The translations under genes and the position numbers were made by a program. The notes below the pieces were generated by a model, which made no database searches, was not told where the DNA came from, and saw only the letters and a program-made list of their open reading frames with translations. This document shows positions 3,994 to 64,000 of a stretch of DNA of 64,000 nucleotides, one piece after another. The stretch spans positions 62,001 through 126,000 of the forward strand of contig JAPPLK010000089.1 in NCBI GenBank assembly GCA_028819435.1, read 5' to 3'. Origin of the DNA: Nitrospira sp. (GTDB lineage: Bacteria; Nitrospirota; Nitrospiria; Nitrospirales; UBA8639). Position 1 is the first letter of the stretch, and every line of letters begins with the position of its first letter.

Positions 3994-4892
3994 CGCGTGG
4001 CACCAAACGCGCCGACAAGGTTGCTCCGTTCAAACACCCCACCAGCTTCTTCATGGGTGTCACCGTAGAAGGTGCCGTCAATACTATTCGCGCCGCTCCC
4101 TTGGCTGAATCGACCATTGGTCACCGCCAGATCATTCCAGGACAGATCGCCATAGGTGCGTGAGCCACGGAGATTGCTGAACAGCGCATCCAAGGTGTTC
4201 TCGCCGAAGTCATAGGTGAGCGCGGCCTTCCCCTGGACCGCCTGATCGGGGGCCGTGCGATCCAGCGCCACAACGAGGCCCGTCCATTCCGCCGATCCTG
4301 TGACGGGATTAGAACCACTGGCATTGCCGGCCGAATACGCAATGAGAGCTTCCAAGCCCTCGATGCTCCCGTACATCGCGCGTCCCCGCCAGCGACCGCG
4401 TTCGACACCAAAGAAGCTGTTGCTGAGCCATCCCCCGTAGACCCGGTAATCCAGCGACCAGTCTTCGTCTTCGTCAAGCGCACGATACGAGGTGCGCCCA
4501 CTGACTTCGCCGGTGTGAATGCCATACTGCGGTGCCCCGATCCGAATGGTGGCGTCCGGGGCAATGACGCTTAACTCTGCGACGCTATAGTACGGCTCCG
4601 ACCACGACGGTTCAGGGGAGCAATAGGTGCCTTGGCAGTTCGCCGTCACACGCTCATTGGGGAACACCCGACTTCTCGGCGTCGATTGCAGATCGGACAT
4701 GATGAGCGTATTCGCGGCCTGCCCAATTTCGGCAATCGCACTCCGTACTTCGGTTGGCGTCAGACGACTCTCGCCGTTACCAGACGGCACCCCGTTCATG
4801 GGGGGCATACCACCACCGCCTCCGCCGCCACAGGCGGTCAGTAGGAACAGCACGCAACTCAACATGAAACTGAAACGAATGAATGAGAACAT
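3990..4892 (-). CDS. TbpB-like (transferrin-binding protein-like) lipoprotein
   Basis: Lipobox LTAC followed by GGGGGGG; C-terminus IDGTFYGDTHEEAGGVFERSNLVGAFGATR; RBS aggaggtgtcccATG. Confidence 0.72.
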   Translation of the reverse strand: MFSFIRFSFMLSCVLFLLTACGGGGGGGMPPMNGVPSGNGESRLTPTEVRSAIAEIGQAANTLIMSDLQSTPRSRVFPNERVTANCQGTYCSPEPSWSEPYYSVAELSVIAPDATIRIGAPQYGIHTGEVSGRTSYRALDEDEDWSLDYRVYGGWLSNSFFGVERGRWRGRAMYGSIEGLEALIAYSAGNASGSNPVTGSAEWTGLVVALDRTAPDQAVQGKAALTYDFGENTLDALFSNLRGSRTYGDLSWNDLAVTNGRFSQGSGANSIDGTFYGDTHEEAGGVFERSNLVGAFGATR

Positions 4893-5710: not shown

Positions 5711-6104
5711 ACGGGGGCTGTTGGGTGATGTACTCGCCCCATCGTTCCATCAACACGCGGCGTTTGAACAGGTCTGATCGCTGATAAGAGGCCTCGACAC
5801 CCTTCACCGTATGCGCTAAACACGCCTCGGCAATTTCCCGTGAAATATTTTCGTCCGCACACCATGAACGGAACGCCGCCCGCATTCCGTGAGGAGTGCC
5901 CTGTATGTCATTTTCTCTTGACAGCTTGCTCAGCGTCGCATCGCTGATGGAGCCACTCCCCGATGCCGGAAAGATCAACCCGGCTGGCATGTCAGCACTC
6001 TTTCTGTGGGTGGCTGCGACTACCCAAACGGCGACGGTGGTGATTTCAACGACTGTATAATCTTTGCCGGCCAGGGCTGCTAATGGCGGTTGCGTCGTCG
6101 TCAT
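5685..6104 (-). pseudogene. truncated tyrosine integrase (C-terminal catalytic fragment)
   Basis: HGMRAAFRSWCADENISREIAEACLAH...EASYQRSDLFKRR...SKVVSLHS parallels the C-terminus of the 18771-19976 integrase; N-terminal half absent. Confidence 0.8.
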
Positions 6105-6298
6105 TCCCTTGGGTGTCTTGGTTGATTTGGGGTGATTTCACTCAAGGGAAATCCGCAAAACACCCCGTCGGCAAGGCCTTGGTCCGAGACTGGGCCCTTT
6201 TCTTTTGGGGGCGGTGGCCTTGGCTGGTCTGCTTGAGCTTGAATAACCGCTCTGAAGCAGAAGTTGATTCTATAGGGAAACTCTTATAGGATGGTCCC

Positions 6299-6802
6299 AT
6301 GAACCAATATTCGGAACAAACGCAGCACATTATTTGGAATGGGCTATTAGATGTGTCTCGCTATGTCCGATATATTGATAAGCTCTGCACCAAATACCAA
6401 TGGTGGCGAAACTTCGTCTATGTTTTGTTTGGGGTGTCAGGTTCGAGTTCACTGCTCACGCTCTTAAATGTGCTTCCTGGGTTTTTTCAATCCATTACCA
6501 GTGCCGCTATTGCCCTTGCTCTAATTTGGTCTCTCACACTCAAACCAGGAGAGAAGGCAGAACGGTTGGCCACCATTAAACTTGATTTGGACCTGCTTGA
6601 AAGTGAATATCGAACACTATGGGAACGTGTTTATCGGAAAACCATCAACGACCAGGATGCTATACAAGAACACGACCGCCTTACCAAAAACGTCACTAAG
6701 ATTATGAGTCATTTGAATGTTAAAACGGATGACCAGCTTAATGAAGAATGCGCCGAAGAAACCTATTTAGTTGAAGCGCAGCGTTATCCTTCGGTAGCCT
6801 AA
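6299..6802 (+). CDS. membrane protein, two central TM helices and helical C-terminus (SLATT-like topology)
   Basis: Two hydrophobic segments (FVYVLFGVSGSSSLLTLLNVL and SITSAAIALALIWSLTL) then an amphipathic region; family unassigned. Confidence 0.6.
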   Translation: MNQYSEQTQHIIWNGLLDVSRYVRYIDKLCTKYQWWRNFVYVLFGVSGSSSLLTLLNVLPGFFQSITSAAIALALIWSLTLKPGEKAERLATIKLDLDLLESEYRTLWERVYRKTINDQDAIQEHDRLTKNVTKIMSHLNVKTDDQLNEECAEETYLVEAQRYPSVA

Positions 6803-6803
6803 G

Positions 6804-7013
6804 ATGTCTGCTCGTCATAAAGATGGTGTTCCCCCACGTCCATCGAAACCTGGCCCCCCACCCCCACCCAAAACCCGATCCGTAAGCGAAGCAGTCGGAA
6901 AAAGAATAAGCGGGAGTGCGTTAACCCAGAGCCCGAAAGGCAAGGAGAAGAAAAGCGGAAGTAAGTCTACTTCGTCACCACGTCCGAGTTCCAAGCCTGA
7001 AAAAAAGAAATGA
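6804..7013 (+). CDS. small Pro/Lys/Ser-rich basic protein
   Basis: Starts 1 nt after the preceding stop; PPRPSKPGPPPPPKTR and a K-rich C-terminus. Confidence 0.5.
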   Translation: MSARHKDGVPPRPSKPGPPPPPKTRSVSEAVGKRISGSALTQSPKGKEKKSGSKSTSSPRPSSKPEKKK

Positions 7014-7191
7014 ATTTGAAGCGTGGGGTCAGGTGTTGGTTTGCAATATTCATGAAAATCTAACTGGTTGTAACGCAATGCGTTTTTAGCGCTTCCTTGC
7101 CTTGAGTTGGGAACGATCACGTACTATATAGAAGACTTCCTCGGGCTCCCGGTGCCTCCGCCTCCGTGGGGAGAGTAGGACCGTAGGACTC

Positions 7192-7803
7192 ATGGATCAC
7201 ATCGAGACCATCTTAGGCATCCTGATCGGCTTCGGGCTGAGCGTGGCCTGTGGGTTCCGGCTCCTCATCCCTCTGTTGTCCTTGAGCATTGCCGACCAAA
7301 CAGGCTATCTCGAACTGGCTGAGGGGTTCACGTGGCTGGGCGACTGGCCGGCCCTCATTGGCCTGAGCATCGCCACGACGTGTGAAGTGATCACGTCGAA
7401 AGTTCCCGTTGCCGCGGAGATCCTTGATTACGTTGAAGCGCCGTTCGTGGTCGGCGCGGGCATTATGCTTGAGCTGTCAATGATTACAGACCTCCCCCCG
7501 TTCCTGGAATGGGGTTTGGCTGTCATTGCGGGCGGTTCCGCAGGGCTGGTCCATGCTGGGGATGCGTTCCTCAGACCCTTCGTGGGAGGGTTCACGGCAG
7601 GATTCGGGGAGCCCGTGTTCTCGGCCGGCGAAGATGTTGGCTCGGGAATCTTCTCTATCCTCGCCGTTACCTTACCTATGCTCCCAACAGAATATCTGGT
7701 GTTTGTCGCGATCGTGTTTCTCGTCCCCGTCCTCTGTGGAGCCGTCCTCTTCGTGTTCTTAATCAAGAAATTGATCGGGAAGCGCCGCCAGGTGCCCGCT
7801 TAG
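7192..7803 (+). CDS. DUF4126-like membrane protein
   Basis: GFGLSVACGFRLLIPLL...DWPALIGLSIATTCEVITSKVPVAAEILDYVEAPF. Confidence 0.75.
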   Translation: MDHIETILGILIGFGLSVACGFRLLIPLLSLSIADQTGYLELAEGFTWLGDWPALIGLSIATTCEVITSKVPVAAEILDYVEAPFVVGAGIMLELSMITDLPPFLEWGLAVIAGGSAGLVHAGDAFLRPFVGGFTAGFGEPVFSAGEDVGSGIFSILAVTLPMLPTEYLVFVAIVFLVPVLCGAVLFVFLIKKLIGKRRQVPA

Positions 7804-9349: not shown

Positions 9350-10000
9350 ATGCCACAGACTCTTACGATACCTCTCCTCAAAACCGAAGCTTCGGTCTTT
9401 GCTAAGACCGAGTCATCTCACCACGAACCTGCGCTTTACGGAATTACAGACGGCAAAGCCGTCGGAACGTACCTTGAACGGAAATTTCAAAACTATTTGC
9501 ACGCTAAATTTACTTACATCGAAGGTTCTTCTGCCAAGGGAATAGATTTTCCAGAACTCGAAGTCGACATGAAGGTTACGAGTATTCGGCAGCCTCAATC
9601 ATCGTGCCCTTTCAAATCCGCTCGACAGAAAATTTACGGACTCGGGTACAATCTTCTGGTATTTGTCTACGAGAAGACCGACGACGAGGCTAAACGGACG
9701 AGTCGTCTCAATATCATGCACACGATTTTTGTAGATCGTTCACGTACCGGTGATTTTCAGACCACTTCGGGATTGCGTCAGATTATCGAAAACGAAGGCA
9801 ATATTGACGATGTATTGGCATTTTTTTCGGAACGGATGCTTCCCATTGACGACATTCAAGCACAACCACTAGCGGAAGAAGTGCTCCGGAACCCACCGGA
9901 AATGGGCTACCTTACGATCTCCAACGCCTTGCAGTGGCGGCTGCAATATAGCCGCGTTATCCAGCAGGCAGGAACCGTGAATGGCGTTGAAAATTTATGA
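9350..10000 (+). CDS. putative type II restriction endonuclease (PD-(D/E)XK)
   Basis: KGIDFPELEVDMKVTS fits a D-x-K nuclease core; overlaps the adjacent methyltransferase start (ATGA). Confidence 0.65.
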   Translation: MPQTLTIPLLKTEASVFAKTESSHHEPALYGITDGKAVGTYLERKFQNYLHAKFTYIEGSSAKGIDFPELEVDMKVTSIRQPQSSCPFKSARQKIYGLGYNLLVFVYEKTDDEAKRTSRLNIMHTIFVDRSRTGDFQTTSGLRQIIENEGNIDDVLAFFSERMLPIDDIQAQPLAEEVLRNPPEMGYLTISNALQWRLQYSRVIQQAGTVNGVENL

Positions 10001-11559
10001 GCAAACAGAAGGAATTTGGTGACTTCCAGACCCCGAACCATTTAGCGGCGCAAGTGGCTGCCTTGGTTGCTGAATTGTTTGGTTCGCCCGATATTGTCGT
10101 GGAGCCGACAGTCGGCCTTGGTGCATTTCTTCGTGCTTCTCATGGAAAATGGGGCAATGCTTGCAGTTACGAAGGATACGAAATTAATCCCGACTATGTT
10201 CGTTCAACAAGCCGCCGTTTTTCAAGTTTGGGCATCAGACTTTGGCAGCAAGATTTTTTTTCCGCTGACTGGCATCAAATTCTCAGGAAAAAGAATTTGC
10301 CCAGAGTTTTGGTTTTAGGCAATCCGCCTTGGGTCACCAATTCCGAGCAGGGCATCCTCGGCAGCACCAATTTGCCCAAGAAAGCCAACTTCCAACGGCT
10401 GCGAGGTTTTGATGCAAAAACCGGAAAATCGAATTTCGACATAGCCGAATGGATGCTCATTCGCCTGATCGAAGCACTACCTGAGTCAGGCGCAATTGCC
10501 ATGCTTTGTAAAACCATGACTGCCAGGAAAGTCTTACGCCATTTTTGGAAGACTGAGGGCGGGTTTGAGGCATCGAAACTATTTCGCATTGATGCAAAAA
10601 CGAATTTTGGCGTTGCGGTTGACGCCTGTCTGTTTGTCGCGACCGGGAAGCGCACGGAAGATCGCATTGCCACAATATATTCCAGGCTTAACTTGGATTC
10701 TAAGGTCGCGGAGTTTGGATGGGTCGACGGAAACCTCGTTTCAGATATCGGGACCTATACGAAGTTTAGAGAACTGGATGGTGGGTCCCCTTACGCTTGG
10801 CGGTCAGGTATCAAACATGATGCATCCAACGTCATGGAGTTTACTCGCCGCAATGGACACCTTGTGAACGGGTTGGGGGAGGCAGTCGAACTTGAGGAAG
10901 AGTACCTGTATCCCCTTCTAAAGTCTTCAGATTTAGGGAACCGAAGAGCGATTCCTCGCAAGGTCGTTTTAGTCACGCAGCGTCATACTGGTGATGATAC
11001 CAGTTCGATCAGGGATATGGCCCCTAAGACATGGAGATACCTTGATGAGCACTCCGAGAAACTGGATTCACGGAAAAGCTCAATCTATCAGAATCGCCCT
11101 CGATTCAGCATATTTGGAATCGGCGAGTATTCTTTTGCCCCTTGGAAGGTTGCCATATCAGGTCTCTACAAATCTTTCACTTTTGTTGTTGTTCCCCCAG
11201 CAAATGGCCGCCCGGTCATGGTCGATGACACGTGCTATTCGATACCCTGCAAGTCTGAGAAGGAAGCTCGATTACTCTATGATCTACTCAATTCAAAGCC
11301 TGCGCAATGCTTCCTTGGGTCCATTGTATTTGAGGATTCTAAGCGTCCAATCACGGTGGATGTCCTGCGCCGATTTTCTTTGGTCAACGTTGCCAAATTG
11401 GTGGGCCGACTCGACGAATTGACAGAATGCATGTTGTCTGAGTACGACTCGCTAGATGGGCGGCGACAACAACTTAGCCTCGTTATTGAAGAAGCAAGGA
11501 AATATCAAACAAGGCGACGCCGTCCAGTGGTGGCTCCTGAAATTTGGAAAGATCGATAA
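9997..11559 (+). CDS. type II DNA adenine-specific methyltransferase
   Basis: VEPTVGLGAFL (SAM motif I) and VLGNPPWVTN (NPPW catalytic motif). Confidence 0.85.
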   Translation: MSKQKEFGDFQTPNHLAAQVAALVAELFGSPDIVVEPTVGLGAFLRASHGKWGNACSYEGYEINPDYVRSTSRRFSSLGIRLWQQDFFSADWHQILRKKNLPRVLVLGNPPWVTNSEQGILGSTNLPKKANFQRLRGFDAKTGKSNFDIAEWMLIRLIEALPESGAIAMLCKTMTARKVLRHFWKTEGGFEASKLFRIDAKTNFGVAVDACLFVATGKRTEDRIATIYSRLNLDSKVAEFGWVDGNLVSDIGTYTKFRELDGGSPYAWRSGIKHDASNVMEFTRRNGHLVNGLGEAVELEEEYLYPLLKSSDLGNRRAIPRKVVLVTQRHTGDDTSSIRDMAPKTWRYLDEHSEKLDSRKSSIYQNRPRFSIFGIGEYSFAPWKVAISGLYKSFTFVVVPPANGRPVMVDDTCYSIPCKSEKEARLLYDLLNSKPAQCFLGSIVFEDSKRPITVDVLRRFSLVNVAKLVGRLDELTECMLSEYDSLDGRRQQLSLVIEEARKYQTRRRRPVVAPEIWKDR

Positions 11560-11604
11560 GTGTTATTTCTGCTTGCGACCCACATAAGCGGCCAGGAAGT
11601 TTAG

Positions 11605-11781
11605 CGCGACAATGTCTTTCTCGAACGGCCCTGGCGGACGATTAAGTACGAGGAAATCTCCCGACGTGCCTACCGAAGTCTCTCGGAGGCGCGGAGCAGT
11701 ATAGCCCGCTATCGGGCATTCTACAATCGGTGCAGACCGCATTCCTCACTTGGCGAGCAAACGCCCGACCCAGTCTATTGA
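11605..11781 (+). pseudogene. IS3-family transposase OrfB C-terminal remnant
   Basis: Reads RDNVFLERPWRTIKYEEISRRAYRSLSEARSSIARYRAFYNRCRPHSSLGEQTPDPVY*, a diagnostic integrase C-terminus; not in the ORF list because no start codon remains. Confidence 0.9.
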
Positions 11782-11849
11782 AACCCACACAAGCCAATCC
11801 AGGCGGCGGACATGGTGGCATCTGAGCCTCATTGTCGAGTTACGCTCCG

Positions 11850-12638
11850 CTAGTCTGACCCCACAGAACTCCCTCGCCAGAATCGCCGTGACTGCCTACG
11901 CGCGAGGTTTCGGTACAAATGGCGACCCACGATATGATCAACTGCTCCTCGAACCGCATCGACGCACTCCTCCAGTATGTCTGAAACTACAAATCCTGCA
12001 ACGGGCGAACTCTTTTCACGAGAAAATTTAATTCCTACTTGGAAGGCGTCCCTACTAATCGGCCTCTTTTCCTCAAAAGCATCTAAGGCTTCCCCACTAT
12101 GAGCCTCAGGCTTCAATCCTCTCAGGGTCGTGCAAACCAAATTCAAATGCCGGTGCTTATCGACATTGCATAGATAGTCCAGTTGCCCAAACACATTTAC
12201 ATTAAACGGCAAACCCAGGCCTCCCCCAAAAGGCTGAAGATCGCGAATCCTCTTCTTGATTTCGTAGCGGACGCCACTCAGTTTGTCTTTTGTCATATTT
12301 TCCCAATCGGACTCTTCGCTAAAAATCGGAAATGCATTCTTTCTTGATGGGTTTTTCCCATTATCAACAACCAACTGCCATACGAGATGATCAAGACTTG
12401 ATCGCAGGTTGTAAACAATTTCTCCGATTCTGACGGACCATTCGATGGGTGTTTTCTCCGAGTCGGCTAAAAATGCCTCTACAATGTCCGCAGACTTTCC
12501 ATCTGGATTTTTCCGTGTAATTCTCTTTTGTTCAACGCGCTGTCGTTCGCAAAAGTTCTCCATATCGGTGCGAAGGGCATGAAGCTCCCTATCCGCTCTT
12601 CCAATTTTTGCACAAATCGCTTCAAGATAGATTGCCAT
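11850..12638 (-). CDS. conserved hypothetical protein
   Basis: 262-aa ORF with IGEIVYNLRSSLDHLVWQLV and coherent composition. Confidence 0.6.
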   Translation of the reverse strand: MAIYLEAICAKIGRADRELHALRTDMENFCERQRVEQKRITRKNPDGKSADIVEAFLADSEKTPIEWSVRIGEIVYNLRSSLDHLVWQLVVDNGKNPSRKNAFPIFSEESDWENMTKDKLSGVRYEIKKRIRDLQPFGGGLGLPFNVNVFGQLDYLCNVDKHRHLNLVCTTLRGLKPEAHSGEALDAFEEKRPISRDAFQVGIKFSREKSSPVAGFVVSDILEECVDAVRGAVDHIVGRHLYRNLARRQSRRFWRGSSVGSD

Positions 12639-12833
12639 TGCTCGCTATCTTTCCTTCACATCTTCACTCATCAGACGCGGCCCACAACCTCTCCGATCCA
12701 AAATCCTCATGGTTATCGGTATCGCCCACCTTTCAGCCAAAGGATTTTTGCAAAGACTCGACCGCAATCTGCTGGGCAAGAGCGTCTTCACTGAAGTTAC
12801 TGAGCCTCATCTTCAGTCACCTTTGTCAGTTAC

Positions 12834-15800
12834 TCACACTAGGCCCTGTCTTTCGATCAATTCTTCCAAGCGTCTGAAGCGCTCGGCGGTCGCCAATTGC
12901 TGATCTTCTTGCCTTATGTCATTTAAACATTGCCGGAGTTCTTCAGGTACCCATTCTGCCTCTGGGCCAACAATTGCCTCCAGGAATGTCAAGGCACGTT
13001 CGGGAAATCTTTGGCAAATCTCTGCTTCGCGAAGGCGACGAACCAGAAAAATAAGAGTCGGTGGGTTCCCTGGTTTGAGCCAGTGGCACAATATATCCAA
13101 TGCTTCAGGAAAGGCATCTCCCGCTGCCACGCAGAGGCGTCCGAGATCCTCGGATATTTGGGTTGTTGCGCGCGCCTCGTCTTGCGGCCAGATTTGGCTG
13201 AAAAATGGAAGCACTCGATTTTGCCAATATTCAACGCGCTGATCCCCTGCTCCTTCAAGCGCACGAGTCAGTGTCCGTGCAACATTTTTTAATCCAGGCT
13301 GTGGTAGGTTTTTCGTCGCTGTTGCCAATTCTTCGATTGTGAAAATACCGCCTGGATCCAGTGCCGCAAAAGTCAGAAAGTCTGCATACTGCTGGGCATG
13401 CTCGCTACCGAACTTTTCATAATGATTCGCCGTTTCCAAAATGGGCTCTTTTATAACTGACAGGAGCGGACCATATAAGCGCGGTGATCGTAAAAACCCT
13501 GCCCACACGGAAAAAGCCTCGACTTCCAAATGTTGCCAGTCAAAGAGCGGCACGAGATATTCCATCGTCCAATCACGATCTACTTGATACAATGAAACAA
13601 CGTGGGCTGCCAACACGACACGCCCATGTCGGTATTTTTCTATGTCCGTATTGCATAGTTCTGTAAAGATTAGTTTTAGCGTTCCCGGCAGCTCTTGGCC
13701 CTCTTCAGGCGCACTCCGATGCCACCAGCGCAACAACGCTTCCGTTACCAACCCAACCGTATGACTCATGGCTCGAAAGAGCGCATTATCCATGAGGAGA
13801 CTGTCGAAATTTTCTTCGTCTGGATGATCCATCCTGAGAATGCGACGGCAAAGGTTCAAAAAGAACTCTTCATGGCCTTCGATGTTCGTGGCTATGGCCT
13901 GAAGCCACCAACCGAGAACGTGTCCGAGCGAATGTACGAATTCATCTGACGCATCATTCAGAACGGGTCCTATGTAGCGCCATGACCGTTTGATGTGCTC
14001 GCCCTCTGACCAAGCCCGAAGTGCTTCTTGCCAACGGCCCTCCGGCCATTCGTTTTGTCTGGCTAATACACGCAAAGCCCAGGCAGAGGTCGGAAAGTAG
14101 TTGCGGCAACGCTGTAGCCAGCCGTCTTGCCTCCAATGGTTAGCAGGACCGTGATGTTCCCTGAGCCATTCAACCAGTTCGCGGCGCCTTTGTGGTGTGG
14201 GCAAAAATTCACGCCGGTCTGCGCCGTCGTTTACTTCCATCCAGGCTGGAAATTCATCACTTTCGTCTTCGGGCATCCGCCATATCGGGTGCTGCTGTGT
14301 TAGTTCATCCAATTTCGTTCTCGCAGCTTGGCCCAGTGCTGCCCCAGCTGATTGTATTTTTTCAAGACGTAACCATACGTAACGGTCTACTATGCCTGCC
14401 CGCTTTTCTTGCTCAAGGTCGTTCGGAAACATTTCGCTTGGTGGTCCGTTCAGAATGGCGCGTTCTAGTTTATCCCTCTCAGATGGGTCCAATTTCGACG
14501 CCAAAGTCACTAAAAGGCGTAGTGACTCACGCTGGGTTCCCGTTGACCAGAGCCACCAACTGTCTTCTGCCAGCAACCAGTCCAAAGCCTGCTGTTGTGA
14601 AATCACTTCGGGTTGTGCAGCAGCAAACAAAGCCAACCGCTTGAAAACGGGAAAACGGATCTGCCACCAGCCTTCGGCTGCCTGCCGAGCTCGAGCATGA
14701 TCAATTTGCGCAGTCGCCAGCCATGCATCACGCGTTAATTTGATCAGAGCGGTCCAATCTCGGAAGTCGCTATTCTGGGTGTGGTCGCTAATCGAAGGGT
14801 GCTGCATATAAGAGAGATCCGTCCTTTCGTCCGCGGCGCCCAATTCTCGTTTCAGATCAAGCGCATCCCGTAAGAGTACGGTAAAATCTGGCAATAGATC
14901 GGGCAGCCCTTCCTGCCACCTCTCCCGCCTCTCTGACTTAGACAGTAACGCTGCATGTACATGGTCACTGGCGAGGACAAGTTCCCACTCGACAAGATCT
15001 TCAATGCGTGAGGGCTCGGACGAGTCAAGGTCATCCTCACCCCAATGAAAGGGCTCCCGTAAAGTCACGCACGGCGCCAAGATCTCTCGCAATTCCGTAC
15101 GAAGAGATGGCGTTATCCCATCCCGCGCTATGCGGTCAAGCCACTGTGTTTCGTAGAGACTGTAACGATGAGTCGGCGATCTTAGTCGCCCAGCCAAAAG
15201 CAGTCGCCATAACGTACGCATCAATCGACCGGGAATAGCCTTAGGCGCGTTGGCACGGATGCGGTCGAGTTCGTCATCGCTCTTGGTATCAAGTTCTTCG
15301 ATTCGGCTACGAATGAGCCGTGCAAATTGCTCATCCAACTGACCACCACGTTCAGCCAGCCAGATAATCAGCTTAGGGTCGTCAAGATGCCGCGTGAGCC
15401 AACGCGCCAAGTGGCTCATTATCTTGTCCCAACCGCTTCGCCGTGCACCTAAATACACCAGGCCCATCCGGAGTGAGAGTGTGTAAGGTGCCGGGCGATT
15501 TAATACGCTGAAACGCAGTTTCTCATCCTCGTCGTTGGTTGCAACGACACCGAAGCACGACAAGTCTCGATGTTCAAACTGGTGTTTTCCGAGCGGATCC
15601 AACCATTCTAGCGGAGGTACGGGATTCATCTCGGCAAAGTGCTGCGCAGCCAAGTCATCTGTCAGGGCCCATAGCACACGTCCCACCGCAAAGTCCGAGC
15701 GAGAAGAAGTCAATGGAGGAGTACTTGCGTGTTGGGTAATAATCATTTTCTTGCCTTGCACGCCGTCACGATAGGTATCTGCCCATTCTTTGAGCGTACG

Positions 15801-16655
15801 ATGAAGCGCGGAATGGTTTTCTCCATTCGCAGGAACCTCGTACGTTAATGGACTAATCCCTTTCGCCTTCCATTCCGCTGACGTTCTCTCTTTTTGACCA
15901 GTTGTAAAGCTTGCGAAGGCATAGGCTTCCGACTTCTTCTCTCCCAGCAACTCATCAGCGGCAAGCGCATCCATCATGTAGCGAAGAACAGGATCATTGA
16001 CGCGGTAACCAACAAAACAGACGATGTGATGTTGGAACAGTGCACTGACAAACCGCGCCGCCCAACGTTCGGTCAAGTAGGCTAGGCCAAAATCACCGCT
16101 GCTGAGCACCAAGCGATTTAATGCAGCCTCATCAGGCTGAGTCGGCAGCAAGCCGTGTAGATGCACGATTCCATTCCAACGGCTTGGTTTGGGAATGGGA
16201 AGATAGGGGGCTTCAAAGCTATCAATCTTAAGTTCTTCTTGGGCAATGACATGTTGGAAAATGCGGTCGAAATTGGTCGTGACGAGCCGGCTGATGCCGT
16301 ATCGGTCTTTTGCGAGTTGCAGTAACGCCCAATGCGTCGTCGTGGCGCCTTCTCCGTCCAACTCAGGCTTGAGAACAGATGCCAAGGTCTTTCTGACCAC
16401 GGGACGTTGCCCAGGATATCTTCGTTCTAGTTGATGAATCGTCGCGTCATAGTGTCCTTTTTCATAAGCCTCCTTCTCTACAGGCTCCATATTTGTGCCC
16501 AACTGTTGATAAATACCGTCAACCAATCCCTTAAATCGTGGCAAGCCTGCTGGGACGGAAATGCCTGCGCCACAAAAAAATACAACATGGCCATCTTCAT
16601 GCGCCTGTAACAGGTGCTCAGGAATATCCGGACCATCGGTGATAAAAGCAGGCAT
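12834..16655 (-). CDS. large SIR2-domain protein, candidate anti-phage NADase (Dsr1-like)
   Basis: N-terminal VVFFCGAGISVPAGLPRF, LVTTNFDRIFQ and VHLHGL SIR2 motifs; about 1000-aa C-terminal extension. Confidence 0.85.
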   Translation of the reverse strand: MPAFITDGPDIPEHLLQAHEDGHVVFFCGAGISVPAGLPRFKGLVDGIYQQLGTNMEPVEKEAYEKGHYDATIHQLERRYPGQRPVVRKTLASVLKPELDGEGATTTHWALLQLAKDRYGISRLVTTNFDRIFQHVIAQEELKIDSFEAPYLPIPKPSRWNGIVHLHGLLPTQPDEAALNRLVLSSGDFGLAYLTERWAARFVSALFQHHIVCFVGYRVNDPVLRYMMDALAADELLGEKKSEAYAFASFTTGQKERTSAEWKAKGISPLTYEVPANGENHSALHRTLKEWADTYRDGVQGKKMIITQHASTPPLTSSRSDFAVGRVLWALTDDLAAQHFAEMNPVPPLEWLDPLGKHQFEHRDLSCFGVVATNDEDEKLRFSVLNRPAPYTLSLRMGLVYLGARRSGWDKIMSHLARWLTRHLDDPKLIIWLAERGGQLDEQFARLIRSRIEELDTKSDDELDRIRANAPKAIPGRLMRTLWRLLLAGRLRSPTHRYSLYETQWLDRIARDGITPSLRTELREILAPCVTLREPFHWGEDDLDSSEPSRIEDLVEWELVLASDHVHAALLSKSERRERWQEGLPDLLPDFTVLLRDALDLKRELGAADERTDLSYMQHPSISDHTQNSDFRDWTALIKLTRDAWLATAQIDHARARQAAEGWWQIRFPVFKRLALFAAAQPEVISQQQALDWLLAEDSWWLWSTGTQRESLRLLVTLASKLDPSERDKLERAILNGPPSEMFPNDLEQEKRAGIVDRYVWLRLEKIQSAGAALGQAARTKLDELTQQHPIWRMPEDESDEFPAWMEVNDGADRREFLPTPQRRRELVEWLREHHGPANHWRQDGWLQRCRNYFPTSAWALRVLARQNEWPEGRWQEALRAWSEGEHIKRSWRYIGPVLNDASDEFVHSLGHVLGWWLQAIATNIEGHEEFFLNLCRRILRMDHPDEENFDSLLMDNALFRAMSHTVGLVTEALLRWWHRSAPEEGQELPGTLKLIFTELCNTDIEKYRHGRVVLAAHVVSLYQVDRDWTMEYLVPLFDWQHLEVEAFSVWAGFLRSPRLYGPLLSVIKEPILETANHYEKFGSEHAQQYADFLTFAALDPGGIFTIEELATATKNLPQPGLKNVARTLTRALEGAGDQRVEYWQNRVLPFFSQIWPQDEARATTQISEDLGRLCVAAGDAFPEALDILCHWLKPGNPPTLIFLVRRLREAEICQRFPERALTFLEAIVGPEAEWVPEELRQCLNDIRQEDQQLATAERFRRLEELIERQGLV

Positions 16656-17046
16656 CAGACCGACACATCTCCGCTCATCAGGCGTGGTAGGAGCAGGCCA
16701 CAGGTTTTCGTTGCCTCAGCAACCTTCTCCCCAAATGAGGTATAGATCGACGGCGAGTAAGTGGTGAAATTATATCCTCCGTATGAACTTCAGGAAAGTA
16801 GACCGTTTGAAGTCTTTTCCAAGGTTGCGGAACAACCGGCTTAGTCGACGGCGCGTGATTGTCAAATGGTCTCTACCACCTTTGCCCTCTTTACAAAGTG
16901 GCGGAAACAACAAGGGCCATGATATTACGCGACTATAAATGCCAAAAACAAAAAACCCTGTTCGCGCGCCCCCCTGCAGGTACGCCGCTCCCACGACGCC
17001 GGGTGCGACATCGGCGAGCACGAACACGGGGCGGAGCCCGAAACGG

Positions 17047-17835
17047 TCAGACGGCGGTGGCGCGCTCCGTGGGTGCGGTGCCGTCAGCGGGTTCGTGAAT
17101 GAAGAGAAAACAGTTCCGTAAATTCTTGATCGAGTCGGGTTTGAAGTCATGCCCGAGCGGGGTGATTTTGCCCGACGTCCGATTGTACTGGTAGTCGGGC
17201 CATTCCCGGGCCGCGAAGAGGGTCTGGTAGTGCACGAGGTCGGGTTCGCGGTCGAACAGATAGTACACGCCGCTGTAGTGTCGCTTGATCAGCGCCCGCG
17301 CGTGATTCATGAAGGACAGATAGATGCGCTTCTGTTCCTTCCGCCAGCGTTCATATTCCAAGGCCACCCAATAGTGCTTCGGGGAGTGCAGGAGGGCGTC
17401 CGGCTTTTCGTAGTGATCGGGTAACGCGATGTGTTTGTCCCAAATGACCTGGTCGTAGTGAGCGAGCCGCTTGAGCACGGCGCGTTGCACGGCCAGGTCG
17501 TGCATGATGTGCGCGTAGCGGTTCAAGCGGGAGGTTTGGGTTTGGGCGTGGGCCACGTCCCGGCCGGCGACCTGTAACAGGTCGACCCCGGCCTTGGCGA
17601 GCATGAGATACCGGGCCCGGCTGGTGTAGACGCTCTTGAATTCCTGGATCAGGTGCTGCTTGAGCAAGGAGCGGAAGAAGTCATACGAACTGCGGGTGGT
17701 CGCACCGAGGCGTCGGGCGAGCAGGTCGACCGAGGAGAATTGAAATTCCAGGAGCCAGTCGAGGACCAGGCGGCGTTTGTCGTCCCGGATGGCGCGGGTG
17801 TATGTAAGCGTCAGATCACGGTGTTCGATACGCAT
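17047..17835 (-). CDS. replication-relaxation-like winged-helix protein
   Basis: N-terminal winged-helix-like segment (LLEFQFSSVDLLARRLGATTRSSYDFFRSLLKQHLI); YLMLAKAGVDLL; HIMHDLAVQRAVLK...PDALL. Confidence 0.55.
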   Translation of the reverse strand: MRIEHRDLTLTYTRAIRDDKRRLVLDWLLEFQFSSVDLLARRLGATTRSSYDFFRSLLKQHLIQEFKSVYTSRARYLMLAKAGVDLLQVAGRDVAHAQTQTSRLNRYAHIMHDLAVQRAVLKRLAHYDQVIWDKHIALPDHYEKPDALLHSPKHYWVALEYERWRKEQKRIYLSFMNHARALIKRHYSGVYYLFDREPDLVHYQTLFAAREWPDYQYNRTSGKITPLGHDFKPDSIKNLRNCFLFIHEPADGTAPTERATAV

Positions 17836-18343
17836 GGGTTAACTTCCTTTCCAAGTATCGGCAAGACCGGCGGCCTGCTTTCAAGCGCGCGGCCCCGCCT
17901 TGTTCCCATTGACTTCCTCCGGGCACACGTCCTACCCTTTCCGCATAGGCAGGCGGTTGCGTTGTTCTGCCTAATCCCTGGTTAGGGGGGACCAGTGCTC
18001 GAACACTGGACCGCGTACTCGGTGCCCTTTCCCCGCTGACCATCGAGGCCTGGGGGGAGGTCACCAACCTCCCCTCAGCGCTGCCTTACGGCGTACTCCG
18101 AGATGCGTGCCTAACTGGCCGGCGACGCCGCGCTGACCAGCACCGGGATGGAAGGGTTACAGGCTTGCAAGGTCCTGCAGGTCAGGTTCGGACCAGAGCC
18201 CGGAATTGCGCCGCGGCCCGCGACGACCGTGGCTGTTCGGTATTTGGTCTATCGCCCCGAACTATGGGCGCGTCACGTGTCGGCGCATCTCCGACACCGG
18301 CCTACAACACAAGCCCGCGCACCCGGCAGGCCTCTGCGTCTGG

Positions 18344-18550
18344 TCAGGGTGCCGTCTCGCCATACGAACGCGGACGTGACTCGACATAGGCGCGAATGTC
18401 ACTCTCCCGCCATCGCACGGCGCGCTCAGAGACTTTCAACGGCACCGGAAAGGTACCCTCGCGCATTTTTCGGTACAGGGTGCTGCGGCTGAGACCCGTG
18501 CGTCGCTCAACCTCGCGGCGGGTCAGAAGCACGTCTTGATCGGTCGACAT
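18344..18550 (-). CDS. AlpA-family transcriptional regulator / excisionase-like
   Basis: LLTRREVERRTGLSRSTLYRKMREGTFPVPLKVSERAVRWRESDIRAYVESR; RBS aggaggtgatgcccATG. Confidence 0.85.
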   Translation of the reverse strand: MSTDQDVLLTRREVERRTGLSRSTLYRKMREGTFPVPLKVSERAVRWRESDIRAYVESRPRSYGETAP

Positions 18551-18734
18551 GGGCATCACCTCCTTTGTGGTGCGCGGAGGCTGCCACACTAGGCGAGGCG
18601 TGTCGTCCTTTTTATTTCGCTGTTTTAATGAGGATAAATCTCTCTTGTTCCAGGAGAATGCCGAAGTATCCGGGGCGTGCCGTTACAATTATTTTCCAGG
18701 TTGGCTCAGGACAGAGAGGTCGTGCCATGCCCCG

Positions 18735-18796
18735 CCCTGAACAGAAGCGGGGAGGAAGATCGTGGACGGATTAGCTATGGAGGGATACGACTTTGG
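18735..18796. repeat. right copy of 62-bp direct repeat (candidate att site / integrase 3' end)
   Basis: ccctgaacagaagcggggaggaagatcgtggacggattagctatggagggatacgactttgg. Confidence 0.8.
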
Positions 18797-19976
18797 TCCG
18801 GGGCGTGTGCAGCACGAAGTCGGCCCATCGTTGCATGAGGCGACGGCGCTTGTTCAACAAGTCTGATCGAGAGTAGGCTTGCTCGACTTGCGACCCGACG
18901 CGGTGAGCCAAACACAATTCCATGACCGCGTGATCGCTATTGGTCCGTTCACTGGCCCAGGTTCTAAACGTGCTCCGGAACCCATGCGCGACCGCTCGAT
19001 CGGCTAGGCCCGCTTGTTCGAGGACGCGGGACAAGACCGGTGCGGTGAGGGGCCGTCCTTTCCGTGCCGGCGAGGGAAAGATGAGCCCAGCGGCACCAGA
19101 CACCTGCTTGGCCCGTTTCAGGATCGTCAGGGCGGCATCGGAGAGGGGCACCCGATGTTCGGCCTTCATTTTCATTTTGCTGGCGGGGATGGTCCAGAGT
19201 TTGTTGCCCCAATCAATTTCTGACCACTCCGCGTTGCGGGCTTCCCCCGGACGCACCGCCGTCAAGATCAAGAAGTGCAGACAGAGCTTGGACGTGAGAG
19301 TAGCCGGACAGGCGTCAATCAATTCCAGGGCGTCGTGAACCTCTTGATAGGGAAGGCTCCGGCGGTGTTCTTTGACGACCGGCATACTGGGCAACGCCCC
19401 GTCCAAAACTTCCCCTGCCACGTTCTGCACAACGAACCCATGAGCAACACACCATTGCAGGATCATGCGGATGCGTTGCCGGAGCCGCTTGGCCTGTTGC
19501 GGGACGGACGTCCACAGAGGCGTGAGGAGCCGGAGCAGGTCTTGCCGGGTGATCTGGTCCACCGCCTTGTTGCCAAAGGCGGGGAAAGGATACTTCTCAA
19601 GCGGTTGGAGCCACACATCCGTATGTGGTCCCGCTTTCCAGCGTGGAAGATTTTCTTTGTAGTAGCGGGACGCCGCCTCTTTGAACGTCGGCATCGCGGC
19701 TTGTTTCCTCCTGGCCTCTTGCTTTTCCGCAACAGGGTTTCTCCCTTCTGAGAGGGCGACCCGATTGTCAAAGGCTTTCCGTCGAGCCGTCTCTAAACTG
19801 ACCACGGGCCACGCGCCAAGGCCAATGTTATGCGGCTGACCGTTGATGGTGAGGCGTTGCACCCAGGACAGGCGTCCGGAGGGCGAGACGTAGACATGCA
19901 GCGTATCGCCGTCTCCGTACATGCGTGACGGCTTGTTTCTCAAGCTCTTGATCTTCGCTACGGTGAGCTTCCCCAT
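18771..19976 (-). CDS. P4-type tyrosine-type site-specific integrase
   Basis: N-terminal LTVAKIKSLRNKPSRMYGDGDTLHVYVSPSGRLSWVQRL; TAVRPGEARNAEWSEID; HGFRSTFRTWASE; YSRSDL. Confidence 0.95.
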   Translation of the reverse strand: MGKLTVAKIKSLRNKPSRMYGDGDTLHVYVSPSGRLSWVQRLTINGQPHNIGLGAWPVVSLETARRKAFDNRVALSEGRNPVAEKQEARRKQAAMPTFKEAASRYYKENLPRWKAGPHTDVWLQPLEKYPFPAFGNKAVDQITRQDLLRLLTPLWTSVPQQAKRLRQRIRMILQWCVAHGFVVQNVAGEVLDGALPSMPVVKEHRRSLPYQEVHDALELIDACPATLTSKLCLHFLILTAVRPGEARNAEWSEIDWGNKLWTIPASKMKMKAEHRVPLSDAALTILKRAKQVSGAAGLIFPSPARKGRPLTAPVLSRVLEQAGLADRAVAHGFRSTFRTWASERTNSDHAVMELCLAHRVGSQVEQAYSRSDLLNKRRRLMQRWADFVLHTPRTKVVSLHS

Positions 19977-45339: not shown

Positions 45340-45828
45340 CTACGAAACCACGATCATGCCCTGCATGCCGCGATGGCCTTTGATGGGACATCGAAAGTGA
45401 TAGACGCCCGGCGGCAAGGTCAGATCGAGTTCGAGCCGTTGGCCGGGAGCCAGGGACATCCCCTGCTCGAGAGAGCCGGCCTGCGGGCCGGATTCCGACA
45501 CGACCCGAACCCGGTGCTGAGCAGAAAAGGTAGTCTGAAAGCGGTGTGTTTCCCGGCCTTGATTCCTCACCACGAGGTGCATGGGCTGCCCTGCCTGCAC
45601 GTCAAACCGAGCCGGTGAGAATCGAAAATCGTCGATGACGATGGTCACGTCCTGATATTCGGAGGAACAAGCCGCGAGAACAAACACGAGGAAGAGAAAG
45701 CATCGTATAAAGCTGTCGCCTCTGACACGGAGTTTGCTGTATAAGCGTTTCCCTCCCGTTTGTAAGGGGAGGTCAGGTGGGGTAGAGGCATTCGTACCTG
45801 GAACACGGGATTTTGCTATTGTGTCCAC
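45340..45828 (-). CDS. cupredoxin-domain lipoprotein (start uncertain)
   Basis: FVLAACSSEYQDVTIVIDDFRFSPARFDVQAGQPMHLVVRNQGRETHRF...GVYHFRCPIKGHRGMQGMIVV. Confidence 0.8.
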   Translation of the reverse strand: MDTIAKSRVPGTNASTPPDLPLQTGGKRLYSKLRVRGDSFIRCFLFLVFVLAACSSEYQDVTIVIDDFRFSPARFDVQAGQPMHLVVRNQGRETHRFQTTFSAQHRVRVVSESGPQAGSLEQGMSLAPGQRLELDLTLPPGVYHFRCPIKGHRGMQGMIVVS

Positions 45829-45958
45829 AGCCTCTACCTCCCCTCACCCCTCCTTACAAAGGAGGGGAATCAATTTGACCACTCCCAGGCCCCGTGCTAG
45901 AGTCGAAGCCCGTGACACGACGACCCGGCTTCCATTCTCCCGTTCTCTTTTCCGTACC

Positions 45959-48007: not shown

Positions 48008-48260
48008 CCACATACGCATGATTTGAAAAGGATGTAGGGGCGACCGGCCGGTCGCCCGTGCCAGAGAAACCCGCTACCTCCCCTTTGCGCTCTTTTCCTC
48101 CCCTTTGTAAGGGGAGGATAGGTGGGGTAGAGGCATTCGAGCACAGGGTTTTGCTATTGCGTCCACAGCCTCTACCTCCCCTCACCCCTCCTTACAGAGG
48201 AGGGGAAAAGGCGGGCTGGAAATTGTCATCGAATGACTGCAAAGACAGGCACAACTGCCC

Positions 48261-60431: not shown

Positions 60432-61628
60432 ATGCTGAATAGTTGGTGGAGAAGGCTGCTGGCAGGATGCTTGATCGCGATGGTCGGTCTCACGGGATGC
60501 GAGGACGCGACAGCCCCGTGGGACCGATACGTAGACCGAGGTGATCTGCTCTTCCAGCAAGGACGCTTCAAAGAGGCCAAGGAACAGTACGCCACCGCGC
60601 TCAAGGAAGCGGAAACCTTTGGCGAAGAGGATCCCCGGCTTCCTCGTTCGCTAACGAAACTGGCCGCGGTCCATGACGCGCAAGGTGAATATGAGCAGGC
60701 CGAACCGCTGTTGAGTCGCGCCGTGAGTCTTAACGAACAGATTCTCGGCAACCGCGACCCTCAATTCGCCGCCAGCCTGAGCAACCTCGCGGCGCTATAT
60801 TTCGCGCAACGACACTACGAGAAAGCCCTCCCCCTCTTTGAACGGGCCTTACACGTTCGTCAAGAAGCACTTGGGGCGGATCATATCGATCTGACCCTGG
60901 ATCTCAAGAACCTGGCCGGCGTTCTGGCCGCTCAAGAACACTATGCCCAAGCGGAGACGCACTTACTCCGGGCCCTTGAGATTACAGAAAACGTCACGGG
61001 CCCGGACGACCTCCAACTGGTAGAGCGCCTCAACAATCTCGCGCTCCTGTACCGGGCACAAGAAAACTATGAGAAAGCCATCCCTTTGCTGGAACGCGCG
61101 CTCGCCATCAATGCGAAGCAATACGGCACCGAGAGTCCGGGTCTGCTCGGTAGCCTCAATAACCTCGCGTCCATGCTCGTGGCCCAAGGCACCCCCGGCA
61201 AAGCCGAAGAGCTGCTGAAGCAGGCGCTCCATATCAATGAACAATCGTTCGGGCCGGAGAATCCGCGATTGGTGGCCAGCCTGACCAAGCTCGCCGACTT
61301 CTATCGCCTGCAAGGGCAATTCGAGAAGGCTGAACCGTTACTGGTCAATGCCTTGGACATTAACAAAACAAAATTCGGCCCGGAGCACGAAAAAGTCGCC
61401 AACGTCGCCAACAATTTGGCGCTGCTCTACCTGTTGCAGAAGAAATACGCGAAAGCCGAACCGCTCTTTGCCCAAGCCCTGGCAATCAACGAAAAAATCT
61501 TGGGCAAGGAACACCCGATCGTGGCCCGCACGCTCAGGAACTACGCCGCGCTGTTGAAAAAAACCAACAGGGAACAGGGCGCTCAAAAACTCGAAGCCCG
61601 CATTGCCACTATCGAGCAAGAGTCATGA
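60432..61628 (+). CDS. tetratricopeptide (kinesin-light-chain type) repeat lipoprotein
   Basis: Lipobox LTGC; 42-aa repeats ending ALYxAQxxYEKALPLFERAL. Confidence 0.92.
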   Translation: MLNSWWRRLLAGCLIAMVGLTGCEDATAPWDRYVDRGDLLFQQGRFKEAKEQYATALKEAETFGEEDPRLPRSLTKLAAVHDAQGEYEQAEPLLSRAVSLNEQILGNRDPQFAASLSNLAALYFAQRHYEKALPLFERALHVRQEALGADHIDLTLDLKNLAGVLAAQEHYAQAETHLLRALEITENVTGPDDLQLVERLNNLALLYRAQENYEKAIPLLERALAINAKQYGTESPGLLGSLNNLASMLVAQGTPGKAEELLKQALHINEQSFGPENPRLVASLTKLADFYRLQGQFEKAEPLLVNALDINKTKFGPEHEKVANVANNLALLYLLQKKYAKAEPLFAQALAINEKILGKEHPIVARTLRNYAALLKKTNREQGAQKLEARIATIEQES

Positions 61629-61754
61629 AACCACTGTGCCCCCTCACCCCAGCCCTCTCCCACGACGGGGGAGAGGGTGCAGGAAAAAGAATGAAGAGGT
61701 TCAAGTCAGAGTTCAGAGACTATGGTAAACTCTCGAACGGAAATGGCATGAGAG

Positions 61755-63128
61755 ATGTCAAGTACAATAAAAACGGTGATTAAAGAGCCTCTTGGCGAAT
61801 ACCGTAATTGGGATGCCAATAAAGTTCAGGACAATGACAGCGCCGCGCATCGGTGGTACCGGTTCGTACTTTCCTTCCCCCCACATCTGGTCCGGGATTA
61901 CCTGGATGATTTTGGTGTACGTAACGACGGGCTGGTACTGGATCCATTCTGCGGAACCGGAACAACGATCGTAGAGAGCAAGAAATTGGGGATTTCTGGC
62001 ATCGGCCTTGAAGCATTGCCTATGGCTCACTTTGCGAGTTGTGTGAAGACAGATTGGAGCCCTTCACCCGATGCGCTGGCCGAGCATGCACAACGTGTCG
62101 CCGATAAAACATTGTACCGCTTAAAAGCCGACAACCTTGAAGATGTTCCGTTCTTCTCTGATCCCTCAGGATCCACGAATGGGCTACGTACCCTACCGCC
62201 GGAAGTCGCAAAGATCCTGCTAAGGAACTCCATCAGCCCATTACCGTTACACAAGGTTTTAGTCCTGCTAAACGTATTGGAAGAAGAACAAGACAAACAA
62301 TTCCTGGCTCACGAAAAGTTAGCATTGGCTAAAGCGTTGGTGGCTGATATCAGCAACCTGCATTTTGGCCCGGAGGTCGGTGTGGGAAAGTGTAAGGACG
62401 ATGCCCCTGTTGTGGCTACTTGGCTCTCCCGTGTCAACGCCATTGTGGAAGACCTGCGGCAGCTTCCCCGGAAAAATAGCGCAACGGCTCAGGCATTTCT
62501 AGCTGATGCGCGTCAAATTCCTGAAATACTTGAACCGGAGTCCGTCGATGCGGTGATCACTTCTCCTCCCTATCCCAATGAGAAAGACTATTCGCGGACA
62601 ACACGCCTCGAAACCGTGCTTTTGGGTTTTGCGCACAGCATGTCGGATCTGCGGACGTTGAAGAAAACTCTCGTACGATCCAACACGCGAAGCGTCTATA
62701 AAACGGATGACGATGATACGTGGGTGAAAGGGCATAAAACGATTGAATCCATTGCACGGGAGATCGAAGAGCGACGTACGATGCTTGGCAAAACCTCAGG
62801 CTTTGAACGACTGTATCACAGGGTCACGAAGTTATACTTCGGCGGGATGGCAAGACATCTTGAGACGATGAAGCGCGTTCTGAAGCCTGGAGCCAAGTTG
62901 GCCTACGTCGTGGGGGATCAAGCTTCATATTTACGTGTCATGATCCAGACGGGACAAATTTTAGCCGGCTTGGCGAAGTCACAGGGATATGAACCGATCA
63001 GGATTGACCTCTTCAGGACAAGATTGGCGACGGCAACAAAGGAGCAACTTCGAGAAGAAGTTCTTGTCCTGCGGTGGCCGGGGAACAGGCAATCCGCAGG
63101 GAGGAAATACGGCCATGGTTGCACCTAA
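61755..63128 (+). CDS. type II site-specific DNA methyltransferase (TSPPY class)
   Basis: LDPFCGTGTTIVESKKLG and VDAVITSPPYPNEKDYSR. Confidence 0.93.
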   Translation: MSSTIKTVIKEPLGEYRNWDANKVQDNDSAAHRWYRFVLSFPPHLVRDYLDDFGVRNDGLVLDPFCGTGTTIVESKKLGISGIGLEALPMAHFASCVKTDWSPSPDALAEHAQRVADKTLYRLKADNLEDVPFFSDPSGSTNGLRTLPPEVAKILLRNSISPLPLHKVLVLLNVLEEEQDKQFLAHEKLALAKALVADISNLHFGPEVGVGKCKDDAPVVATWLSRVNAIVEDLRQLPRKNSATAQAFLADARQIPEILEPESVDAVITSPPYPNEKDYSRTTRLETVLLGFAHSMSDLRTLKKTLVRSNTRSVYKTDDDDTWVKGHKTIESIAREIEERRTMLGKTSGFERLYHRVTKLYFGGMARHLETMKRVLKPGAKLAYVVGDQASYLRVMIQTGQILAGLAKSQGYEPIRIDLFRTRLATATKEQLREEVLVLRWPGNRQSAGRKYGHGCT

Positions 63129-63927
63129 CCGGTACGTGCGAATCATCGAACGCATCTTCCTCTCAATTCACAAGAAAGGTGAACAAGAAGTACTTTTCAG
63201 TCGGACCGACATAGAAAAGGCTGCGGCAACATTGGGCATCACGCTGCCGAAAAACATCGGAGATGTCATATACAGTTTCCGTTACCGTGTTCCGTTACCA
63301 TCCTCAATTCTCAAACGTGCTCCCAAGGGCAAAGAATGGATTATACGACCAGCCGGACGTGGGAAATATCGTTTTGTAGCGACCGAGGTAGCTCAGATCA
63401 CACCGACAAAACACATGGCTGAAACAAAAGTGCCGGATGCAACGCCCGGACTGATCTCGATGTATGCCTTGAATGACGAACAAGCCCTGCTTGCAAGGTT
63501 ACGATACAATCGACTGGTTGACATCTTTACACGAGTCACGTGTTACCCGTTACAAAGCCATCTACGAACCACGATTCCACAACTTGGACAAGTCGAGACA
63601 GATGAAATCTATATCGGAGTCGATCGTCGTGGTGCGCACTATGTTTTTCCCGTACAGGCGAAGGGCAAGACAGACCGACTCAACGTGGTGCAGATCGAGC
63701 AGGACGTTGCGCTGCGCAGGCACAAATTTCCCAATTTGATCTGTCGACCGATTGCCGCCCAGTTCATGCCGGATGATCGCATCGCACTGTTCGAATTTGA
63801 GGAAAGCAACAGAGGAATCGTCGTCTCTCTTGAGAAACACTATCGCCTTCTTCCTCCCGAAGAAATTGACCAGGATGAGTTGACAGATTATCGAGCACGG
63901 ATATCTGATGAGCCTCTTGCAAAATAG
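63115..63927 (+). CDS. putative type II restriction endonuclease
   Basis: RBS gaggaaatacggccATG; overlaps MTase end; VETDEIYIGVDRRGAHYVFPVQAKGKTDRLNVVQ fits a D...QxK nuclease core. Confidence 0.72.
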   Translation: MVAPNRYVRIIERIFLSIHKKGEQEVLFSRTDIEKAAATLGITLPKNIGDVIYSFRYRVPLPSSILKRAPKGKEWIIRPAGRGKYRFVATEVAQITPTKHMAETKVPDATPGLISMYALNDEQALLARLRYNRLVDIFTRVTCYPLQSHLRTTIPQLGQVETDEIYIGVDRRGAHYVFPVQAKGKTDRLNVVQIEQDVALRRHKFPNLICRPIAAQFMPDDRIALFEFEESNRGIVVSLEKHYRLLPPEEIDQDELTDYRARISDEPLAK

Positions 63928-64000
63928 AGGAACACCCGATCGTGGCCCGCACGCTCAGGAACTACGCCGCGCTGTTGAAAAAGACTAACCGGGAACAGGA
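63928..64000 (+). repeat. second copy of the TPR gene 3' end (61507-61579)
   Basis: aggaacacccgatcgtggcccgcacgctcaggaactacgccgcgctgttgaaaaa identical in both; later differences mostly synonymous; truncated by window end. Confidence 0.9.

Follow-up and report, generated by a model that had tools for sequence, protein, structure and literature searches.

A gene pair between two copies of a gene end

How does a restriction-modification (R-M) system come to lie directly behind an intact host gene with the last part of that gene repeated on its far side? The question is raised by the end of a 64,000-nucleotide stretch of Nitrospira sp. DNA (the window, G000:C61:62001-126000, from contig JAPPLK010000089.1 of assembly GCA_028819435.1), in which a predicted DNA methyltransferase (MTase) and restriction endonuclease (REase) follow a gene for a TPR-repeat protein (Table 1). 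The reading we favour, with a probability of roughly 0.6, is that this type II R-M pair entered the genome at the TPR stop codon, with the final ~120 bp of the gene now present again on the far side, an ‘insertion with long target duplication’ in which one joint would have been homologous and the other illegitimate.

A preliminary description of the window had reported that its final 73 bp repeat the TPR 3' coding sequence, with the first 55 nt identical. Alignment bears this out for the in-window direct repeat (61507-61578 and 63928-63999, ~72-73 nt, 96% identity), and bases past 64000, read on the contig (which extends to 130694), lengthen it to 190 bp at 92% identity, far exceeding chance (blastn E 7e-64). 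The full repeat takes in the TPR stop codon and ~70 bp further, including a palindromic intergenic stretch. That description had also placed the R-M module exactly between the copies, which holds on the right, where copy 2 abuts the REase stop codon; on the left copy 1 runs on behind the gene, so that the non-repeated insert is 61697-63927. Copy 2 is a headless fragment with neither a start codon nor the body of the TPR gene. A complete tandem TPR paralogue beyond 64000 had been named beforehand as the outcome that would reduce the structure to ordinary tandem genes; the stop codon follows instead, and there is no second TPR gene downstream of copy 2. The repeat is TPR 3' coding DNA present twice in the genome, and not an insertion sequence of the kind that flanks composite elements.

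The MTase and REase genes stand next to each other and belong to matching families, which makes the pair a predicted type II R-M system. The REase family is spread over many phyla (80 loci kept in a survey), and an MTase lies directly upstream in 77 of the 82 loci checked for linkage. The predicted fold of the REase is confident (pLDDT 87), and comparison of the structure with PDB gave no match below E 0.001.

Table 1. Features at the right-hand end of the window, in window coordinates
Feature	Position	Strand	Evidence and remarks
TPR-repeat host gene (putative lipoprotein), intact; 3' end is the duplicated target	60432..61628	+	Pfam TPR_12/TPR_10
Copy 1: final ~122 nt of the TPR gene, stop included, plus ~68 nt with intergenic palindrome	61507..61696 (L003:2508-2697)	+	190-bp direct repeat, 92%
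DNA methyltransferase gene with motif I (DPFCGTG) and an SPPY motif	61755..63128	+	PF01555 6e-13; PADLOC MTase_II 1e-40
Restriction endonuclease gene, 14-nt overlap with MTase	63115..63927	+	PADLOC REase_II PDLC03404 6e-113
Copy 2 (native gene end)	63928..64000, on past the window to equivalent position 64117 (L003:4929-5118)	+	First base after REase stop; junction identical in G001

Occupied, decayed and empty sites in the genus

The genus set comprised the genome of the window (G000) and thirteen others. DNA matching the TPR gene is present in all 14, most of which also keep the same downstream neighbours; in G000 these are, 3' of copy 2, a small membrane-protein open reading frame (ORF) and then c-type cytochrome-like, oxidoreductase-like (sulfite-oxidase type) and glycoside-hydrolase-like genes, named by inspection. 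The R-M pair occupies the same place in G001, with the MTase intact and one internal stop in the REase, and in G010, where it is intact; G004 retains a truncated MTase as a remnant, and G013 a fused one. In G010 the REase is followed by CGACATAAAGGA, a possible remnant of copy 2 that is too short to claim. The pair is missing from G003, G006, G008, G009, G011 and G012, in which the spacer from the TPR stop to the small gene measures ~20 to 215 bp, and the comparison with R-M-less relatives proposed in the preliminary description returned a single copy of the TPR 3' end in each; G003, G009, G011 and G012 have clean short gene ends. TPR proteins are often multi-copy, and copy 2 could in principle be the remnant of an ordinary tandem paralogue replaced by the R-M pair. 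We regard this as scarcely credible, since a tandem TPR gene is found here in no genome of the genus, copy 2 joins native flanking DNA and the sequence past 64000 speaks against it.

The most informative relative is G001, which also has a copy 2 whose starting position after the REase stop is the same as in G000. The right junction is identical in the two genomes (REase stop, then AGGA..ACCCG), and as G001 carries both the same R-M pair and the same junction, the arrangement is not a misassembly. Copy 2 of G001 continues GAGTCATGAAAACGGGCAGCCGG, matching the native flank of the empty-site genome G012 (GAGTCATAAACCGGGCAACCGG), while copy 1, beside the R-M pair, ends GAGTGAAAAAG, like the R-M-carrying G010. 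Copy 2 is therefore the resident sequence and copy 1 the R-M-linked one: copy 2 and the DNA that follows it are the original gene end, as best seen in G001, and it is copy 1 to which the R-M pair is attached. The preliminary description had proposed an insertion that reconstituted the 3' end with an incoming allele and was silent on which copy is native. An intact gene with a duplicated end, the flanks in G001 and the grouping of a second locus (glnS, below) agree with that proposal in part, and the evidence identifies copy 2 as native. In G001 the interval separating copy 2 from the native small gene holds a GIY-YIG-like ORF and one more small ORF (L034, oriented 5877-7306), a further insertion at the same site.

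In trees of flanking genes G000 and G001 fall into different deep clades, and from species to species the MTase diverges about as much as the flanking genes do, which argues that the R-M pair has long been resident or, at least, that there has been no recent swap between species. Judged from these sequences the insertion is old, with a right junction common to two clades and a pair decayed or absent in most relatives.

Apparent concerted evolution of the two copies

The TPR 3' copies cluster by genome and not by copy, and the approximately unbiased test speaks against monophyly of copy 2 (p = 0.001). A single shared junction predicts that the copy-2 sequences are sisters; as the copies cluster within genomes instead, the simplest explanation is that conversion has acted between them inside each genome, which would also account for the 55 identical bases in G000. 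Clustering within genomes is likewise what separate insertions in G000 and G001, happening to share a junction and with no gene conversion, would give. This alternative is improbable, given that the right junction is the same to the base in both genomes and the MTases are as diverged as the flanking genes.

The preliminary description had further read the differences beyond the identical stretch as mostly synonymous, and hence copy 2 as having been under coding selection and not a fresh duplication. Over 120 coding bases (stop counted) the copies show 10 differences, 6 synonymous and 4 not, a modest excess over the neutral 28:92 site ratio (P = 0.013). The first part of that claim thus stands, modestly. 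The second does not follow, since the 55 identical bases and the within-genome clustering point to later gene conversion, and the synonymous pattern alone is no proof of present or past selection on copy 2 as a second gene.

The same layout at other gene ends

Other R-M systems flanked by host 3' duplications, for which the preliminary description had suggested a search, were found at glnS (G000 and G006) and at comM (L057). The scan of G000 for further cases covered ~1.4 Mb of 2.6 Mb. In this genome a XamI-type R-M system (PF09572, E 2e-116) follows glnS, and the last 81 bp of glnS recur beyond it (L216:9489-16642, G000:C57). Close relatives end glnS with TAG or TAA; in G000 copy 1 ends AAATGA with an unmatched flank, and copy 2 keeps the native AAATAG and a flank like that of G005, G010 and G011. 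Copy 2 also groups with the native clade-mates G009 and G004 (bootstrap 87), and the closest sequences to copy 1 are those of G008 and G012, which belong to the other clade. This grouping of short sequences would fit an incoming allele on the R-M side and is suggestive only. G006 has the same XamI R-M system with a 196-bp glnS 3' copy, the repeat differing from that of G000 in length and start.

These lengths bear on a further possibility, that the insert is an integrase-type element which used the gene 3' end as its attachment site, with the repeats as attL and attR and a recombinase acting in trans. Rebuilding of the 3' end is typical of tyrosine-integrase sites, and integrative elements in gene 3' ends likewise restore the gene and displace its old end. 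Unlike such elements, the 2.3-kb TPR insert consists of the two R-M genes only, with no integrase or other site-specific recombinase in the gene list, Pfam or PADLOC annotations and no att core seen. The glnS repeats of G000 and G006 differ in length and start, and by eye no core is common to the TPR, comM and glnS targets; we consider an integrase-type origin very improbable.

At L057, from the Methylomirabilota, an R-M system of the same family as that in the window follows a comM-like gene, and the last ~100 bp of comM (103 bp) recur after the REase at 89% identity. Relatives end comM with GGGTGGTAG or GGATGGTAG; in L057 the terminal bases of copy 1 are GGATGA, and copy 2 has retained the native GGATGGTAG. 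Two toxin-antitoxin-like pairs, DUF433/DUF5615 and MNT/HEPN, follow comM one after the other on the minus strand of the relatives L153 and L154, separated by partial comM 3' copies. Across the R-M family, near-flank repeats are clear in 3 of 73 loci (G000, G001 and L057) and probable in a few more, with scores above nearly all of 858 cross-pairings. The footprint is recurrent in the family but not universal, or it fades with time. Flanking repeats at L059, which by eye resemble an insertion-sequence transposase end, and at L107, which recur elsewhere in the locus, were not counted.

Two probable but short repeats occur at L063 (56 bp) and L131 (52 bp, 2278-2329 and 4498-4549), the latter at the starts of the MTase and of the next gene. 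The MTase start region of L131 may be a copy of the following gene's 5' end, which would give the R-M pair a captured ribosome-binding site and start codon; no empty site was found among family relatives of this genome.

The layout also brackets toxin-antitoxin modules. In G000 the trmFO 5' end is duplicated over 144 bp; the copy contains a premature stop and is located upstream of a VapBC-like cluster with two PIN-domain genes (L247:1017-7056, G000:C89). The outer copy has the native upstream flank seen in G011, G001, G010 and G005, and the inner copy a flank as in G003 and G008. G003 has a VapBC-like pair at the trmFO site, and this 5' layout is the mirror image of the 3'-end cases. Elsewhere in G000 a Gp49/HTH toxin-antitoxin pair lies between 205-bp, 97% identical 3'-end copies of a small ORF (L215:1-1556, G000:C56). 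No annotated addiction module was found between the repeats at L161, L177 (ORFs scanned) and L232 (by eye). Within the window, the pair 45748-45869 and 48093-48207 was set aside as a two-copy palindromic intergenic element of the CTCCCCTTTGTAAGGGGAGG type and not a gene end. Another R-M-like pair (MTase-motif ORF 9997-11559) stands near a SIR2-like gene and an integrase-like ORF at window positions 9350-19976, by eye a likely defence island.

A proposed mechanism with two kinds of joint

In the comM, glnS and G001 TPR cases, similarity between the copies ends within a few bases of the stop codon, which suggests two alleles with coding sequence in common but different intergenic DNA: one would have arrived with the module, and the other would be the resident. 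The mechanism we favour, as yet unproven, is a recombination that was anchored in the gene at one joint and was illegitimate at the opposite one. Incoming DNA would have carried the R-M pair beside an allele of the same host gene; a crossover inside the coding sequence would have joined incoming and resident alleles on one side, and an illegitimate joint inside the 3' end of the resident gene would have closed the other. The host gene would thereby be rebuilt with the incoming tail and the resident tail stranded downstream. Gene conversion between the repeats would afterwards keep the copies alike, and recombination of repeat with repeat could delete the R-M pair to give a single clean gene end. 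Type II R-M systems generally kill cells that lose them, and such killing would be expected to oppose loss of the pair.

The alternative that competes most directly is a true target duplication, in which repair of a break close to the stop codon copied in R-M DNA and then switched template back to ~100 bp upstream, or a transposition-like process took place, leaving two resident copies identical at first. It accounts for the 55 identical nucleotides and has no need of a donor with the same gene arrangement. The right limit of similarity, within a few bases of the stop at TPR (G001), comM, glnS and the comM toxin-antitoxin loci, is not what random breaks would leave, as these would run on, and the glnS copies fall with different clades. 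We think template-switch duplication rather unlikely, though it stays a real rival to gene-anchored recombination.

Several observations count against gene-anchored recombination with an incoming allele. The first 55 identical nucleotides could reflect a fresh duplication and not conversion; trees of 115 bp at the TPR locus do not show copy 1 as foreign; and the repeat in G000, reaching ~70 bp past the stop, requires either that conversion followed or that the donor was close. In G010 the R-M pair occurs with no second copy of the TPR 3' end, no donor was found, and the model does not explain how the pair first came to lie beside the gene in the donor.

Beyond this locus, we tentatively put forward that addiction modules in these bacteria, both R-M and toxin-antitoxin, spread by one gene-end-anchored route, in which the module travels with a gene end, rebuilds that end and strands the old one, leaving repeats that are limited at the stop codon and convert one another and that permit clean loss. 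Our caution reflects the extent of the scan given above and the 32 PIN-domain hits in the genome, which indicate that toxin-antitoxin modules are common and that some bracketing could be due to chance.

Relation to known insertions and significance

Homology-facilitated illegitimate recombination is known from studies of natural transformation; one homologous and one illegitimate joint would yield the structure seen here, where the process is deduced from the end state only. Insertion of R-M units with long target duplication was reportedly described by Nobusato et al. in 2000 (Gene 259:99). It has been reviewed (PMC3874152, PMC3031569), with an example in CGAT (PMC1643837).

The feature in the window belongs to this known kind. 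Like those cases, it has R-M genes between host direct repeats on the order of 100 bp, relatives with a single copy and no insert, and no transposase, and the duplication is long and variable (~120-190 bp at TPR, 103 bp at comM, 81 and 196 bp at glnS). Unlike them, as later accounts describe them, the repeat here is the end of a coding gene, limited at the stop codon where resolvable; it is common to deep clades and bears marks of conversion, and toxin-antitoxin modules are found bracketed in the same way.

What the present analysis adds is the gene-end and stop-codon regularity, the reading of one side as native and the other as incoming, the signs of concerted evolution, the repeated loss, and recurrence with another type of R-M system and with toxin-antitoxin modules in the same genome. 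This touches the open question of how such modules enter chromosomes with no transposase, in a setting where a single genus displays native and incoming sides as well as empty sites and decayed copies. With the layout at three loci of one genome and at comM in another phylum, the proposed route is testable both by comparison and in the laboratory.
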